Source: Naumovozyma dairenensis CBS 421
Lineage: Eukaryota; Ascomycota; Saccharomycetes; Saccharomycetales; Saccharomycetaceae
DNA length: 64,000 nt
Assembly: GCF_000227115.2 (NCBI RefSeq)
Contig: NC_016486.1
Coordinates: forward strand, 1 to 64,000
Direction of reading: 5' to 3'
A program made the position numbers and the translations under genes. The notes under the pieces are model-generated. The model ran no database searches. It was not told where the DNA came from and saw only the letters and a program-made list of their open reading frames with translations. Shown in pieces: positions 1-52,361 of the stretch (position 1 is its first letter; each line of letters starts with the position of its first letter).

Positions 1-601
1 CGCAAACACAAACGCAAACGCAAACGAAACCGAAATTAATGGGCTTGCAATCTTCCGTCCAAAGGAGAATATTGAGTTAGAAGACATTACGAAGGAGGTT
101 AAAGAGGTGATTCCATCGCAGGATCATGGAAAAGACAAACCTATTGCTATAAACAATCCCAAACAGAGACTTGAGGTCAAACCAGAACGTCAATTGGATG
201 AGATCGCACCGAACAAGGTCGGCACAACCGAAAAGAAACGAAATGTCTCGTTTTTCCGAAAGTTCTCCAATAATTCCGCCACAATAAAAGGTTACGATCA
301 CGAGATATATGTTAACATCGGTTCGCGACAGTTGTATACTGGATTGAGAAAGTTGTTAGAAGGATGGACACAGTATGGATTAAAAGACGTGAGGTCAGAC
401 AATACCGCAATGAAGATTACCGGGAAATTAGCTAATGACAATATACTTTCGTTAAGGTCTACACTGTTCGAACTACTGGTAGAGCCTAAGGGATCCAAGT
501 ATAGTCTGATTGGGTTTACAAAAGTGCAAGGATCTAGTAAAGTTGTGAGACGGTTATTTACTGAAATCGAAAAAGTATTAAATAAAGAGGGTGTTTTATA
601 A
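1..601 (+). CDS. C-terminal part of a GIN4/KCC4-type septin-associated kinase (5' end outside the window)
   Basis: The reading frame is open from the left edge (codons start at base 2) to the TAA at 599-601, giving about 199 C-terminal residues with no start codon in view. The last 100 or so residues look like a KA1 domain, the phospholipid-binding tail of the bud-neck kinases Gin4, Kcc4 and Hsl1. Recognisable blocks are the stretch ending in GLRKLLEGWTQYGLKDV, the NILSLRSTLFELLVEPKG segment and the final VVRRLFTEIEKVL. The kinase domain is not in the window. I cannot separate GIN4 from KCC4 on the tail alone. The gene ends about 160 bp from the a1 gene, so its 3' end borders, or may belong to, the Z side of the mating-type cassette. 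Confidence 0.75.
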   Translation, partial: ANTNANANETEINGLAIFRPKENIELEDITKEVKEVIPSQDHGKDKPIAINNPKQRLEVKPERQLDEIAPNKVGTTEKKRNVSFFRKFSNNSATIKGYDHEIYVNIGSRQLYTGLRKLLEGWTQYGLKDVRSDNTAMKITGKLANDNILSLRSTLFELLVEPKGSKYSLIGFTKVQGSSKVVRRLFTEIEKVLNKEGVL

Positions 602-719
602 AAAGTGTATGTATATATAAAAAAAACTGGACAGTTTCTTGCTCTTACGGTGTGAACAGAGAAACCACTTTGCAAATACCCGTCCCATCCTCACAGATAC
701 CCCCCTCATGCCCTATTGC

Positions 720-733
720 ATTACACTGTTCCG
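720..733 (-). other. HO-endonuclease-like site; probable Y/Z junction of the mating-type cassette
   Basis: On the minus strand this reads CGGAACAGTGTAAT. The S. cerevisiae HO cleavage core is CGCAACAGTATAAT, so 12 of 14 bases agree, including the AACA that HO leaves as an overhang. It lies about 25 bp downstream of the a1 stop, which is where the Y/Z boundary sits in MATa. The minus-strand frame equivalent to the alpha1 frame stays open across it for about 30 codons, to a stop near 645. That is what a Z segment encoding the alpha1 C-terminus would need. The match is visible in the sequence; cleavage is inference. Confidence 0.6.
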
Positions 734-757
734 AACAAATGATAAAAATTACTGATT

Positions 758-1164
758 TTATTTTATTTTAGTACGCATGCGTTTATTTATGAACTATATA
801 GGTGTTAGTAACGGAGCACAATAAGAAATAAATCTGAAGCAATCAAACATACCCACACTCTGACTTGCAATGCTGACATTCCACAGGATTTTGCAACAAA
901 TTCCCTTTCTTTCGTATTCAACCACGGCTTTTTCTGGAAAATATTTTCTAACAATAGTTTATTCTCCTTGGAGATAGGCGACCTTGATCTATAGTACAAG
1001 TAATTCTCATACACCTGTTTAAGAAGTAAACTCTTCTTAAACAAACTAAGCGACGAATTCAGAATATCCTACTTCTTGTGGTTAGTCATCTTGAAATACT
1101 GCAAGAGGGTTACCGAACTTAAACATACCTGTGAAGTTTCGTTGAAACTATCTTGTAATAACAT
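758..1164 (-). CDS. MATA1: MATa1 (a1) homeodomain mating-type protein, three exons
   Basis: Haploid-repressor homeodomain protein that pairs with alpha2 in a/alpha cells. Exon 1 is 1164-1129, intron 1 1128-1069 (GTATGT...GACTAAC...TAG, 60 bp), exon 2 1068-853, intron 2 852-794 (GTATGT...TACTAAC...TAG, 59 bp), exon 3 793-758. Joined, they give 95 residues with no stop and consistent phase 0. The homeodomain covers about residues 33-95. Helix 3 is split by intron 2 exactly between W and F of the QVRVW-FINKRMR recognition helix, the same place as in S. cerevisiae a1. The protein is shorter than the 126-residue S. cerevisiae version because the N-terminal region is reduced. The start ATG at 1164 is the one that joins cleanly to intron 1. 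The sequence alone does not show whether this copy is MAT or a silent HMR-like copy. Confidence 0.9.
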
Positions 1165-1625
1165 TGCAATGTATAATTGTTTATTGAGGAGGGGGGTGAG
1201 CGGTGGTTGGATTGTATATTGATTGAGACGAGGGGATATACCCGCCTATTTGTATAATAGATCTTTGCTACTTATAATAATTTTTCCAATCTGAATACGA
1301 CCAGGTCATTATTACTGAAAGGGGAAAAATTGAAGTTTCTTGGTACATTAGAACTTGAAACACGAAAACGACGTGAACACTACTCTCAACAACATGATAT
1401 ATATAGACAGTAAACATTACATGGTTAATGAACTGTCAGGCTAACATGTTAGGTATGGCAAAAGTTTAATTGTTCGCGACTGCGGACATCCGCGCCCAGC
1501 CAGAAACTTGAAATAAATGAAGCTTGAGGGTCCTTCAAATATTATCACTTTTAACGGATGTTTGGGTGGATTTTGTTTACTTTTGGAAAATCCACCATGA
1601 ACTGGTCACTTATAGTTGGGCTCGA
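1165..1625. other. Gap between a1 and SIR1: a1 promoter and possible silencer
   Basis: This 461-bp stretch lies upstream of a1 and downstream of the SIR1-like gene. No alpha2/a2 homeodomain remnant could be found in it on either strand. A TATA-like run is near 1237-1255. An Abf1-type and a Rap1-type site lie side by side at 1544-1569. Confidence 0.55.
1544..1569. promoter_or_regulatory. Adjacent Abf1-type and Rap1-type sites, candidate silencer
   Basis: Bases 1544-1556 (ATCACTTTTAACG) fit the Abf1 consensus RTCRYNNNNNACG exactly. Bases 1557-1569 on the minus strand (CCACCCAAACATC) closely resemble the Rap1 site ACACCCATACATT. S. cerevisiae HMR-E combines ORC, Rap1 and Abf1 sites, and Sir1 is recruited through ORC. 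A convincing ORC consensus was not seen; a weak T-rich candidate is near 1570-1586. The role as silencer is inferred from site pairing and location. Confidence 0.4.
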
Positions 1626-3086
1626 CTACTGTCCCTGACTGGCGATATACAAACTTTTTAGCTCATTAAAGGATTTGATGTAGTAGCTTCGTTGTTGATC
1701 ATAACTCACTAATGTGGCTACATCCTTGAGGAACGTGAAATATTCTTCGTCTTGTAAGTCTTTACTTTCATGATATCCTCCAAGTAAACTCTCTAAGCTA
1801 TCATTGGCAAATGGATTTTCCGGTAGTGGCACCTTCTTCAGCGGTTCGTATATATGTCTCCATCCAAAACTTTTAAAATGAAGTGGTATAGACCTGTATT
1901 TTCGTGGAGTTAACGCACCTTTATATTCAGTAGGTGGAACAATCCACAAATCCCCATTTTTATCTTCATAGAAATCCTCATTATTTGCGTTTAATGTATC
2001 AAATAACTGTGGCGAATCAACAGCATACGGATGTTTTGTTAATTTTAATATATTCCAATCAACGAGATCACACTCCTCAATATATTCTTTTTCCTCATCG
2101 GTAAGATTTCGTAAATAGTCTTGCTCATTGGGGTTAATTATCTTCTTCTCTATTATGTCAACAAGAAATCCACCGGTAACCATCAATGAATCTGATATTT
2201 TGAACAAAGTTGCCTTCGAAGAATTTGATTCTCTAATCCATTCACTTATTAGACTTGGAAATACAGATTTGCTAACATACTTTATATTTTGAAGCAGTTT
2301 TGTTTTGCTTTTCTCGTATATTAGTTTAAACGTAACAAAGTCATCTTCGGATCTCCCGTCTGAGAAAAAATACTCTTTCATTTTTCGAAGTCGCCAGTAG
2401 TTCTTCTCTAAACTCATATCAAATAAACTTCGTTGTAAGACTTCCAATTCTTTGACCTTGTCTTGTTCTTCTTTCTTTTCTAAATTCTTGACTTTAAGTC
2501 GGGTAATAGGTGGTTTGATCTTGATGAAATAATGCTCAGGAATATATTTGACATCTGGTAGAGAGAAACCTTTTAGCTGATCCATAGATATATCAGAATT
2601 ATTTGTTATGGTGTGTTCTGTGTTTAGAGTTTCGCAAACCTGTTGATCTTTTAATTGTTGGTTAAAGGGCCCGCTGTATGCTTCCTGTGTGCCCGTTAAT
2701 GGTTCCTCTAAGACCATATATTTACTCACAGTCTCTTCTAATCTTACAATGGGAATAGATATAGCTTTATGAGTGGCTTGATGCCTGGTACATGGTTCAC
2801 AGTAGTATTTGCTATTCCTTTCACAAAACTTGACATAGATGTATGGTTTCAATATCCAAAGCAGTACACTCTTATTAGTAAACATATAATTTGAATCAAT
2901 AAAGTATAGTTTGGTTAAAGACATTGGATTGTAAGTATTTTTCAGCAAGTACCAACCACCAGGTGTTAGCGTTGTTTTACTTTCATCTGATGATAAGTCT
3001 GTAACAACTTTGCTATTGAGGTTGATTAGGAAACCATCAATAATAGTGAATTGACCTTTCGGTACCGTAATAATCGGATACTGCAT
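1626..3086 (-). CDS. SIR1: Sir1/Kos-family silencing protein
   Basis: 486 residues from the first in-frame ATG at 3086; the frame runs upstream to 3152 but without another ATG. Sir1-family proteins bind Orc1 through OIR modules and help to establish silencing at HM cassettes. Two module-like repeats are visible. Residues 10-90 contain IIDGFLINLNSK, WYLLKNTYNPMSL and a KFC segment. Residues 300-405 contain VTGGFLVDIIEKKIINPN, LVDWNILKLTKHP and an LF segment. The spacing and key residues (GFL, W, the K..P turn) resemble S. cerevisiae Sir1 as I know it. The C-terminus has the family-like YDQQRSYYIKSFNELK. The protein is shorter than S. cerevisiae Sir1 (over 650 residues) and lacks the first N-terminal module. 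It lies next to the a1 gene, which makes a local silencing role attractive. It could equally be called KOS1, KOS2 or KOS3. Confidence 0.78.
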   Translation of the reverse strand: MQYPIITVPKGQFTIIDGFLINLNSKVVTDLSSDESKTTLTPGGWYLLKNTYNPMSLTKLYFIDSNYMFTNKSVLLWILKPYIYVKFCERNSKYYCEPCTRHQATHKAISIPIVRLEETVSKYMVLEEPLTGTQEAYSGPFNQQLKDQQVCETLNTEHTITNNSDISMDQLKGFSLPDVKYIPEHYFIKIKPPITRLKVKNLEKKEEQDKVKELEVLQRSLFDMSLEKNYWRLRKMKEYFFSDGRSEDDFVTFKLIYEKSKTKLLQNIKYVSKSVFPSLISEWIRESNSSKATLFKISDSLMVTGGFLVDIIEKKIINPNEQDYLRNLTDEEKEYIEECDLVDWNILKLTKHPYAVDSPQLFDTLNANNEDFYEDKNGDLWIVPPTEYKGALTPRKYRSIPLHFKSFGWRHIYEPLKKVPLPENPFANDSLESLLGGYHESKDLQDEEYFTFLKDVATLVSYDQQRSYYIKSFNELKSLYIASQGQ

Positions 3087-3852
3087 TGTTCTTTTGAGAG
3101 GAATTATACAACTTATTATGCTTTCTGTACTGTTTTCATGAAAAGATGGCAAACTTTTCTCATTTCTCGTTTTTCCTTCTCTTTCCCTCAGAAAAATGTT
3201 TACTTTTTGGAGATTCTAGGTTTTTCGAAATCGGCCTCTCAATGAGAAAAAGCTTAAGTTATGAAGAATGTGTGCTCAAAAATAATCAACTGTGAATGAT
3301 CAACAAATTGAAGGAAAAAACAGATACAAATCCTACAGATAAAAAATTAACCTGGGCTTTCTAGCTAGTAATGTATCTGTCTATATCTGACCTCAGTTAC
3401 GATATTCCATTAATTGGGAATCTTCTGGCAGACAGATAGAAGTACAGTTGTAACCTTAGTGACTAGATATTCAAATTAGGCAAAAACGATAATTGTCCTT
3501 AAACCTCTCGAGTCAATATATATAATATAATACATCAATATAAATTTTATATTATAAAGGCTTGATATGTAGTATTTTGCTCTCATTACAAATCATTATT
3601 CAGAGTTAGAGTGTCATTACATTTTTGCTATTTGAAACAGTCGTGTCACTTCCCCAAATAAAGACGTCTCATGCTGTCCATTTTATTTTTATAATCAAAG
3701 ATAAATCTATAATATATAATATGTAAGATATAAACATTGACTAAAACATTTAAACGATAATATAGTGTATTCTAGGCAACAAAAATATTTTTTAAACAGG
3801 TAATCCCAATCGGTCGATGGTATTAGAGAAAAAGTACTCTTATATACTACTC
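3087..3852. other. Gap between URA1 3' end and SIR1 5' end
   Basis: 766 bp of AT-rich sequence, presumably with the SIR1 promoter and the URA1 terminator. An open stretch on the plus strand at 3051-3245 overlaps the SIR1 5' end and looks like a chance frame. No RNA gene or repeat was recognised. Confidence 0.5.
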
Positions 3853-27045: not shown

Positions 27046-29017
27046 TATTGCTTGTTTGTTTTGACTATGATTTTGAACAGATATTTCTTCTTTCCTTTTT
27101 TTTCCTTTCTGTCGTAGAGTTATCCTAGATGGTATTTTCTTATTATTCTTCTTCTTACAGAGAGTGGGGAATTCAATTGCACTGGTTTGTGTATTAAACT
27201 TGTGTATTAATTGTATGGTTTCCACCGAGGAATAAGGTGTGTTTTTGTGTTATAGAGAAATTTGCCTCCCTTTTTACCAGAAAAGGTTATTCTTGCCTTG
27301 TTTGTTTGTTCGCTTTGCTNNNNNNNNNNNNNNNNNNNNNNNNNNNNNNNNNNNNNNNNNNATTGTGATCCATTATGAATGAATAACAGTGAACAAACGA
27401 GTGTCATAGGTACGTAGGTAGATGACCAGCGATTAGCATGAAGAGTGTCTTGGATTGTATGGCTGGTGCATAAGCAATTTATGAAATCTTCTTTTGAAGT
27501 TCAACCAAGTTCTGCGGTTATTTTTTCTTGCGTCACACTTTTTGAATCAGAGCCAAAGAGGTCTGACAAAGTCTATTCCAAAAATGCTGGAATTCCGAAA
27601 GAAGAAATAATTAAGACTTAGTATCTGTATATACTAAGTAGTAGTAAGGTATTATATCCAATATGGACATTTACTATTATGCGACTACCCGAAGAAAATA
27701 GAATTTTAGTTAAACTGGTCAAACAAAAAAAATAAGAATAATTTATTACTTTAAGGTACACTTCATATATTGTACTACATTTATATATATTATATAAAAT
27801 GATATAGAAAAGAAGGAAGCAATAGCAACTTTAAGTTATTGTACTAAATCTATTACAACCTTAACTAATAGTCTATCTTAATCATGTCTGCCCCATTCAA
27901 TGTTTTTACAATATATTAATAACCTGCACTAAGACAAAAATATTGAAAACTCCATAGTCATAGAGAATAGTATTATAAGAATAAAAGTCTTGAATAATGG
28001 TAGTAATAACGAATAACATAACCATAATGTAATTACAAGTTGAACAAGGGTCTTGGCAATTTTTTTGGCAGGCAAAATGTAGTAAATATTATATGCTGAC
28101 AGGTACGATGGTGCCAATTTTGTATGCACACTATATTGTATGCTTTTTACGACTATAGACCTGAATATGGACAACACAGAACATCGATTTCATTAAATTA
28201 CCGGTAAGAAGATTAGTGTTGAAAATTGAAAGTTGAAAGATAAAACTTTTTAGTAAAACAGAAGAGACAGCAGAAAATGACTTTTTCTTTGTGATCTTTC
28301 TGTATAAACATGTTCTCTACAGAAAGTAAATATAATTCCTTGATAACCAAACCTACATTCGTGGTTCTTCAAAATACTTTTTCCATCAATTTTTGATTAC
28401 AAACTTGCTTGTAAAATGACGTTATATTATTTTCTATAAGACTTAAACAAAAAATCAACAAGAACAATTCGTCGTTTTTAACCTTAAAAACAAACAATTG
28501 TTGCAATATAATTTTATTGCCAAAGTAATTGAATTAACAAAATGATGACAATTAAGACAAATGGAAAGCAAAATATAATAATAGAAAAGGGAACAGTCAT
28601 TAATAATGGTTCTGGAATTTATACGTAATTAATTTTTAGGGAAAAAACAAGAATATTGAGTAACTTCTTAATATTAAAAAAAGAACGTCATCTCATGATA
28701 ATATTAAATTATGTAGAGTTTGATAATAATTTCTGTAACATGAAAGTCCAGTAATCGACATTTCCCCTTCAAAAGGTAACCGAACATTTTTTACGTTATC
28801 AACATGATTATTTTACCTTAATAATCACTACTTCGTCCAAAATATTTCACGTTGCCCTATAAGAGAAACATTTTCAATAACTGATGATCCATTCATGCTT
28901 CAACAAAATTATCATCGGAAAATTATGCAGTGAATTATCAAAAAAGATAATTATAATTAAAGTATTAGGTATACAAAAAAGTCTTAGGGAATAATAAACA
29001 ATACCAGCCTTTCAACC
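27046..29017. other. 2-kb gap upstream of SBP1, with an assembly gap
   Basis: It includes the SBP1 promoter and pyrimidine-rich leader and the N-run at 27320-27361. The remainder is AT-rich with no coding sequence I can support; the 82-codon minus frame at 27929-28177 has no recognisable features. A C-box-like ATGATGA at 28541 has no matching D box, so no snoRNA is called. Confidence 0.45.
27320..27361. other. Assembly gap (42 N)
   Basis: A run of 42 undetermined bases in the SBP1 upstream region, flanked by T-rich sequence. The true length is unknown. Confidence 0.99.
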
Positions 29018-51553: not shown

Positions 51554-52361
51554 TATTATCTTGTAATAAGTGAGCAGTTGTTGTTTTCTTCTAAAATATT
51601 GTAGGTTGGTATATTCTCCAATCAAATCTAACTTATATACTTTCAAATTGTGTTATTGCGACAACTAATGAATAGTGTAATTGTCTGTTTCTCTAGAAAT
51701 ACTCTGGATGTAGGGGAATGATTTTATTTTCAAAGCAGCATATATATCGAATAGAAATATGATATTATATGATATTTGACGACAGATATTCTAAATAATC
51801 TTTATGGTTGGCCACACTTCATCCAATCTTCTATAAATAAACCATAGTAGTGTTCTCTTTATGGTAATCAATCAATTAATCAATCATCATCATCCTCATC
51901 ATCAGTAGTAGTTTGTATTGATGTTGTGAAAAATGATTCATATACTTCCGAAAGACATTTCTACACCTCCAAACCACGTGATAATGGCTTTAGGGTTTTA
52001 TTCAACATTTTATTAGGGATAGGAACAAAAATGCTGGAACAAGCCCTTAGGGTTTGTTAATTCAACCACGTGCACCAGTTCACCCAGACACCCTGGAATT
52101 TTTGGGTTTTTTTCAAAGGTTTTTCTCAAAAAAAGAACTGCGCCGTCTGTCTGTACTAATGGTAATGATAGTAATGGTGATAAGTAATAGTAATAATTTC
52201 CAGCTGTTATAATTATTATTATTGCTATTATCATCAGAACAGAACTTTTCCATAAGAAATAGTGAACTTTATAGGTCAAGAAGTCAGATACTCAAGAAAA
52301 CTGCGTCACACGATAATATCCCAAGAGAGACTTTCGAGCAAAAACCAAAGATATTCAAAAG
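51554..52361. other. Divergent promoter region between OCA5 and RIM101
   Basis: 808 bp, with (ATC)n near 51882-51903 and ATT-rich tracts near 52185-52230. A CACGTG E-box is at 51975-51980 and another at 52067-52072. The WSC4 gene found in this interval in S. cerevisiae is absent. Confidence 0.5.

Follow-up and report, generated by a model that had tools for sequence, protein, structure and literature searches.

A KOS3 gene beside a predicted HMRa cassette in Naumovozyma dairenensis, and a candidate silencer from the same sequence family as a chromosome-end element

The HMR-E silencer of Saccharomyces cerevisiae holds Abf1 and Rap1 sites (PMC2994660; PMC3060084), and at silencers Sir1 and Sir4 bridge the origin recognition complex (ORC) and Rap1 (PMC2994660). 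Within Saccharomyces the Abf1 and Rap1 sites of HMR-E are conserved and the ORC site only poorly (PMC2994660). X elements with ORC and Abf1 sites also occur near the chromosome ends of S. cerevisiae (PMC2994660; PMC3060084). Genes of the SIR1/KOS family have been reported close to silent cassettes in other yeasts. KOS3 lies about 1 kb from HMR in Torulaspora delbrueckii (PMC6405483, citing Ellahi and Rine, 2016), a Zygosaccharomyces rouxii hybrid has two KOS3 copies upstream of HMRa (PMC6405483), and SIR1 is among the genes mapped as flank markers of the Z. rouxii mating-type loci (PMC3628578). Here we describe the first 64,000 nucleotides of contig NC_016486.1 of Naumovozyma dairenensis CBS 421 ("the window"), where a KOS3 gene stands next to an a1 cassette and a dispersed subtelomeric element lies between the two. 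The genome searched comprises 13,527,580 bases in 11 contigs, one of which, C8, has the window as its left end.

The KOS3 stop is separated from the cassette X box by 182 bp (1444–1625). The linkage is of a known kind, found here in a post-duplication yeast. T. delbrueckii shares the placement of KOS3 near HMR (Ellahi and Rine, 2016, via PMC6405483); N. dairenensis differs, as known from its sequence, in the 182 bp distance from the X box, in belonging to a post-duplication genus, and in the subtelomeric element in between. Z. rouxii likewise has KOS3 or SIR1 beside HMRa, and a shared chromosome-end element is absent from the accessible parts of the descriptions in PMC6405483 and PMC3628578. 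The original prediction, made from the sequence of the window, called it striking to find a gene for a cassette-silencing protein beside a cassette. The linkage is real; it is also less surprising than the prediction held, being known from T. delbrueckii and Z. rouxii (PMC6405483). We think it probable that KOS3 beside HMRa is an old, conserved arrangement and that the 182 bp between them carry the X-side silencer, in the HMR-E position and kin to core-X-like elements.

The cassette is predicted to be HMRa, an a1 gene in boxes common to MAT and HML at the end of a contig, and in this the original prediction of an a1 cassette beside the gene is upheld. The a1 homeodomain gene (758–1164, minus strand) has three exons (1164–1129, 1068–853, and 793–758), supported by splice sites and translation; its introns have GTATGT donors and GACTAAC or TACTAAC branch sites. 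The X box (823–1443), with a1 exons 1 and 2 inside, is 99% identical to HMLα at C1:2266–2886. The box on the other, kinase-gene side (Z side; 1–733) is cut by the contig end, matches HMLα at 98% and also matches MAT, and contains the 3′ end of a kinase gene with a fungal KA1 domain, which we take to be GIN4-like. MATa (C1:124241–125683) has one mismatch in 1443 positions against window 1–1443, and HMLα (C1:139–2886) is at the left end of C1. The match between HMR and MAT stops at 1443, and that between HML and MAT runs 271 bases farther. Exons 1 and 2 of a1 (window 823–1164; C1:2266–2610) lie within the X box and so are present at HMLα too; the a-specific part of a1 is exon 3 only, with the end of the recognition helix.

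The neighboring gene (1626–3086, minus strand) is an intact frame of 486 open codons. The Sir1 ORC-binding model PF11603 matches the 486 amino acid (aa) protein in two stretches with 124.3 bits (E-value 4.6e−36; cut-off 24 bits), so that the profile search, named beforehand as the test of Sir1/Kos identity, gave a significant match to the ORC-interacting (OIR) domain. The C-terminal OIR module (1848–2201) covers all of the model (positions 1–120 of 120, 110.3 bits). Searched alone (1812–2216) it scores 110.6 bits (E-value 8.6e−32), and its profile finds the S. cerevisiae Sir1 OIR structure 1zbx among solved structures (E-value 8.7e−19). The N-terminal OIR-like module (2799–3053) is weak: it matches model positions 5–87 of 120 with 20.2–20.8 bits, and alone (2697–3086) it reaches 20.8 bits (E-value 5.5e−4), below the 24-bit cut-off. 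Sir1 was not found when its profile was compared with solved structures. A profile–profile comparison of the two modules gives an E-value of 4.6e−6 and a probability of 86%, from an alignment of just 47 columns. A tree built from 21 module sequences joins the first module to the middle modules of two paralogs in the same genome that are longer (support 100/99) and unites the C-terminal modules (91/94), with weak support at its deepest forks (74/74). Kos3 has two OIR-like modules, then, the second strong and the first backed by profile comparison and tree.

Protein searches placed this gene among Kos3-type relatives. N. castellii Kos3a (NCAS_0A15340), of the same length and with the same two-module layout, is 43% identical over 99% of the protein; another match has 36% identity over 100%, and one in Zygosaccharomyces bailii 29% over 99%. 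Three Kos3-type relatives have 475–489 aa, and the C-terminal tail of the 486-aa protein can be aligned with those of three Kos3-type proteins, which bears out the family C-terminus of the original prediction, together with its two modules. On the collinear match to a named Kos3, the module layout and the tree, the protein is classed as Kos3, the two-module form of the Sir1/Kos family. A further alignment search for Kos3 sequences returned four proteins, one of them new, a paralog of the same genome. The longer paralogs (C10:765501 and C4:1211393) have an additional N-terminal OIR that is missing from Kos3; the Pfam model misses the middle module of the C4 paralog, and its call rests on the tree. 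The claim that the first N-terminal module is missing thus stands against these two paralogs; the comparison with S. cerevisiae Sir1 (1z1a, 1zhi, 1zbx), which shares the C-terminal OIR module, covers the OIR chain only and leaves full-length Sir1 outside. An AlphaFold model from four Kos3-type sequences (mean predicted local distance difference test score 50.8) was too poor for a fold search.

In favor of a false join of HMR and KOS3 through a repeat, C8 starts inside a cassette box, the X boxes are repeated, and C5 starts inside an X box. The first run of N in the window is at 27320, and the HMR–KOS3 stretch is free of gaps. C5:1–1836 matches window 1357–3206 at 97% and so repeats the join of X-box end, element and KOS copy, and the element is joined with KOS, as a relic, at C9 as well. 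Because the stretch is gap-free, the join recurs at the C5 end and the linkage is reported in other yeasts, we regard it as confirmed that the linkage is no artefact; an assembly error is highly improbable, and the concern that the linkage was unique to a misassembled scaffold falls away. The C5 copy of KOS differs from the window gene by 26 substitutions, 10 silent and 16 non-silent, and by two one-base indels about 80 bp apart. It was initially read as a dead pseudogene. The excess of silent changes (P = 0.02, simple binomial) and the two closely spaced indels question this, and sequencing error may lie behind the indels. The upstream stretch shared with C5 (3087–3206, minus strand), within the 97% match, is a likely promoter of KOS3. 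Contig C5 may stop just short of a fourth cassette at its left end.

The element between cassette and KOS3 (1472–1651) overlaps the last KOS3 codons. Window 1440–1700 matches 12 places, itself included: one each on C8, C5, C9, C11, and C6, two each on C3 and C4, and three on C2. The C9 match starts at 1472 and most others cover 1501–1651. Ten of the 12 copies are within 13 kb of a contig end, and the other two flank an inverted pair on C2 (105–113 kb). At ten of the 12 places the next feature towards the chromosome end, mostly 0.45–0.75 kb away, is an OIR-bearing Y′-like open reading frame (ORF) or its remains; at the C8 and C5 copies the X box occupies the position of the Y′-like ORF. Like a core X element, it recurs at chromosome ends and is centromere-proximal to the Y′-like ORFs there. 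In S. cerevisiae, core X and Y′ follow the same order as the element and the Y′-like ORF, a likeness by position and not by sequence. N. dairenensis differs from S. cerevisiae core X and HMR-E in that the candidate HMR silencer and the chromosome-end element are of one sequence family, as their sequences indicate, and this is the new part of the arrangement. We found no description of the shared element or of OIR-bearing Y′ ORFs in the literature searched, which comprised titles and abstract openings, with most subscription papers outside it. A diverged stretch upstream of a Y′-like ORF at the right end of C5 (about position 5803 of L034) has an ATCAC-type Abf1 site and GTTTACTTTT at similar spacing. 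It is possibly a thirteenth copy; it was found through the Abf1 pattern, outside the listed element matches, and is excluded from the count of 12.

The copies share two conserved blocks. The Abf1 consensus used, RTCRYNNNNNACG, is that of S. cerevisiae. It occurs at 1544–1556 (plus strand) and is perfect in all 12 copies, as ATCAC, ATCAT, or ATCGC followed by TTTTAACG. In the alignment, which holds 11 copies (the twelfth was read separately), 64 of 124 columns are invariant; the copies are not independent, eight of them (all but C8, C5, and C9) being 87–98% alike. Within the Abf1 window 11 of 13 columns are invariant, and the other two vary only among the bases that R and Y permit. The second block, GTTTACTTTT (1575–1584, plus strand), is invariant in all 12 copies, always within 60 bases of the Abf1 site, and this GTTTAC block is conserved at least as well as the Abf1 window in the 11-copy alignment. 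It matches the consensus of autonomously replicating sequences (ARS) at 8 of 11 positions and carries the forkhead-like GTAAACAA on its minus strand. A further GTTTACTTTT is found at 3198, within the stretch upstream of KOS3.

The Abf1 site is directly followed by a Rap1-like site (1556–1567, plus strand) that fits 10 of 12 positions of the N. castellii Rap1 minimal site (PMC6915718). Only the C8 and C5 copies have this adjacency; the cores of the remaining ten score 7 or 8. As in HMR-E, the gap thus holds predicted Abf1 and Rap1 sites, the first perfect and the second at 10 of 12. Among 2000 dinucleotide shuffles of 1444–1660, 50 had an Abf1 site, 19 a Rap1-like site, and one had both. A scan of 280,486 bases gave 35 occurrences of the Abf1 pattern, of which ten fall inside element copies, and 18 Rap1-like sites (at least 10 of 12), of which two do. 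The interval 1165–1625, at which the original prediction proposed chromatin immunoprecipitation of Kos3, holds the candidate silencer motifs at 1544–1584. A perfect N. castellii Rap1 minimal site lies at 52082 (minus strand) of the window, far from the cassette.

Several observations weigh against a silencer in the gap. The motif models come from S. cerevisiae and N. castellii and not from N. dairenensis. A perfect ARS consensus is absent from window 1–3400, and the best match in 1444–1660 is 8 of 11, where GTTTACTTTTG ties with three other places; because of this, the block is a candidate ORC site only. Six of the ten other copies (those on C9 and C11, one at each end of C4, and the two interior ones on C2) have a perfect RTGTRYGGGTG 235–874 bp towards the chromosome end. 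A Rap1 site as a feature of the cassettes alone was rejected for this reason, and the cassette copies appear to differ from the others in the spacing of Rap1 and Abf1 sites, not in the presence of a Rap1 site. At the four remaining copies the distant motif was not found within the stretch examined, which was 290 bases at the right-end C3 copy. No perfect match to Abf1, the ARS consensus or Rap1 was found in C1:1–4700 (HMLα). Three truncated KOS relics, at the ends of C9, C10, and C4, show KOS3 being carried along with subtelomeric blocks, and the case for selection on the linkage itself is weaker for it. RNA interference (RNAi) genes are also present, namely two Piwi-domain genes and Dicer-like genes at C5 and C11, and part of the subtelomeric repression may run through RNAi. 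Finally, the placement of ten copies upstream of OIR-bearing ORFs or their remains, in the same orientation and mostly at 0.45–0.75 kb, would suit a promoter.

The element could accordingly be the promoter part of the Y′-like ORFs, with Abf1 as an ordinary transcription factor and HMRa moved into the Y′ position. The element is upstream of a1 too, its Abf1 site being 380 bp from the a1 ATG. At MAT, where expression of a1 is needed, a1 has no element, as the sequence shared by the window and MAT goes no farther than 1443. A promoter also leaves the conserved GTTTACTTTT block unexplained, and the place between subtelomeric genes and Y′-like ORFs is the place of core X. We consider a promoter origin unlikely.

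No perfect silencer motif was found around MAT either. At HMLα the X-box match ends at C1:3156, and a weaker cluster lies just beyond it, within 120 bases (C1:3178–3297; L017): GTTTACTTTT at 3178, a Rap1-like site of 9 of 12 at 3261, and an Abf1 site with one mismatch at 3285. The cluster was picked post hoc. Seven Abf1-like sites, three of GTTTACTTTT, and two Rap1-like sites are found by relaxed rules in these 4.7 kb; since such matches are common, the cluster is a lead only, a possible HML silencer.

Spread with subtelomeric blocks raises another account: shuffling of the subtelomeres would have produced the linkage as a side effect, one of the scattered KOS3 copies having stayed near HMR without functional coupling. 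KOS matches are found at the ends of C5, C9, C10, and C4 besides C8, the C5 copy at 97% DNA identity. The C10 relic (C10:299–475) and the C4 relic (C4:4307–4444) are N-terminal remains of the same short piece (window 2928–3078, about 80%), and since both hold this piece they were probably spread by subtelomeric duplication. At the C9 end a 3′ relic of KOS is joined with the element. Both full-length Kos3 copies of this genome (C8 and C5) adjoin X boxes and the C9 and C4 relics do not, although the numbers are small; the C10 relic begins 299 bases from its contig end, too close for its outer neighbor to be seen. Reports of the linkage in T. delbrueckii and Z. rouxii (PMC6405483) also speak against chance. 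Shuffling alone is a somewhat unlikely explanation.

In the reading we prefer, an old linkage with a silencer in the gap, the adjoining Abf1 and Rap1-like sites and the ORC- or forkhead-like block would be the silencer parts. Abf1, Rap1 and ORC would bind the element in the 182-bp gap, Kos3 would dock on ORC through its C-terminal OIR module, and Kos3 would bridge to Sir4 and so start Sir2/Sir4 silencing over a1. The genome has components for this: a Sir4 SID domain (E-value 9.5e−60), five BAH domain matches, Sir2-family genes at five places, and two ABF1-like genes (C8:552368–554884, and C11:341228–342394 with a shorter frame of 434 codons). The element would be one of a dispersed family at the base of Y′-like ends, kin to a core-X-like protosilencer, and the Rap1-like site adjoining Abf1 at HMR is perhaps what turns a protosilencer into a silencer. 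Co-adaptation of silencer and Kos3, which the original prediction had raised, is a hypothesis.

The original prediction had also raised feedback, in which KOS3 is silenced by the chromatin that it nucleates and its dose limits itself. The distance and orientation of KOS3 fit, and Gallagher and colleagues are said to have stated in a 2009 abstract that most SIR1-family genes have telomere-proximal positions, with telomere position effect acting on at least one. Against feedback, about 1.5 kb separate the start codon of KOS3 from the Abf1 site. The similarly placed KOS3 of T. delbrueckii is key in silencing and so is not strongly off (PMC6405483). Feedback seems quite unlikely to us; within the silencer reading, mild self-silencing would be possible, given a gene that has its 3′ end towards the silencer and its start codon at this distance of about 1.5 kb.

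The Y′-like ORFs carry the same domain as Kos3. A genome scan with PF11603 gave at least 28 matches, at least 24 of them over the cut-off; nine are assigned by position to Kos3 (two copies) and its longer paralogs (also two), 18 to large subtelomeric ORFs or remains, and one, at C2:447322, is left unassigned. Large subtelomeric ORFs that start with the Sir1 ORC-binding domain include C11:655–5370, C3:628–4278, the one from C5:1181562 to the contig end, and one at the right end of C2, with others. Pfam searches of four subtelomeric ORFs or pieces found two with Sir1 and helicase domains over the cut-off (DEAD and Helicase_C; DEAD), one with Sir1 and a sub-threshold Helicase_C, and one piece with the helicase part only. 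The order of Sir1 domain and then helicase, over the cut-off, holds in at least L030 (C11) and L034 (C5). The label Y′-like rests on the position and domains of the N. dairenensis ORFs, not on homology to S. cerevisiae Y′. In the module tree seven OIR modules of Y′-like ORFs fall into a group of their own (94/97), separate from the Kos3 modules. A tentative and rather unlikely extension is that HMR silencing and Y′-type helicase elements are one subtelomeric system. The HMR silencer would then be a core-X-like element at which a Rap1 site came to lie beside Abf1, Kos3 would travel with the element (KOS3–element–HMR at C8, KOS relic–element–Y′ at C9), and the Sir1 ORC-binding domain would let Y′-like elements dock on, or compete for, the ORC/Sir platform.

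Other features were noted at these chromosome ends. At C2:105505–112808 (L037 and L038) a 7.3 kb inverted pair of 98.4% identity sets Y′-like ends head to head, with a gap of 20 N near its center (C2:109150–109169); it may have arisen by telomere–telomere fusion, be a true palindrome, or reflect a wrong join in scaffolding. On the left end of C5 (L019:1–4239) the KOS copy is followed by a divergently placed Dicer-like RNase III gene (PF20860), and a second Dicer-like gene (L031:8609–10000; C11, about 18.6 kb from the end) lies near a Y′-like end. The α1 ORF of HMLα (L017:783–1190) has 135 aa and matches PF04769 at profile positions 36–96 of 194 only; the ORFs that follow HMLα (L017:4652–9527) are presumably CHA1-, VAC17-, and MRC1-like, as named from synteny with S. 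cerevisiae.

Silencers evolve fast, and their origin is hard to trace. In N. dairenensis the candidate HMR silencer belongs to the same family as ten Y′-side elements, and the step from protosilencer to mating-type silencer would thus be open to test, by comparing a Rap1-like site that adjoins Abf1 with one that is far from it. The KOS3–HMR linkage, kept from pre- to post-duplication yeasts, also opens to test the joint inheritance of a silencing protein and its silencer.
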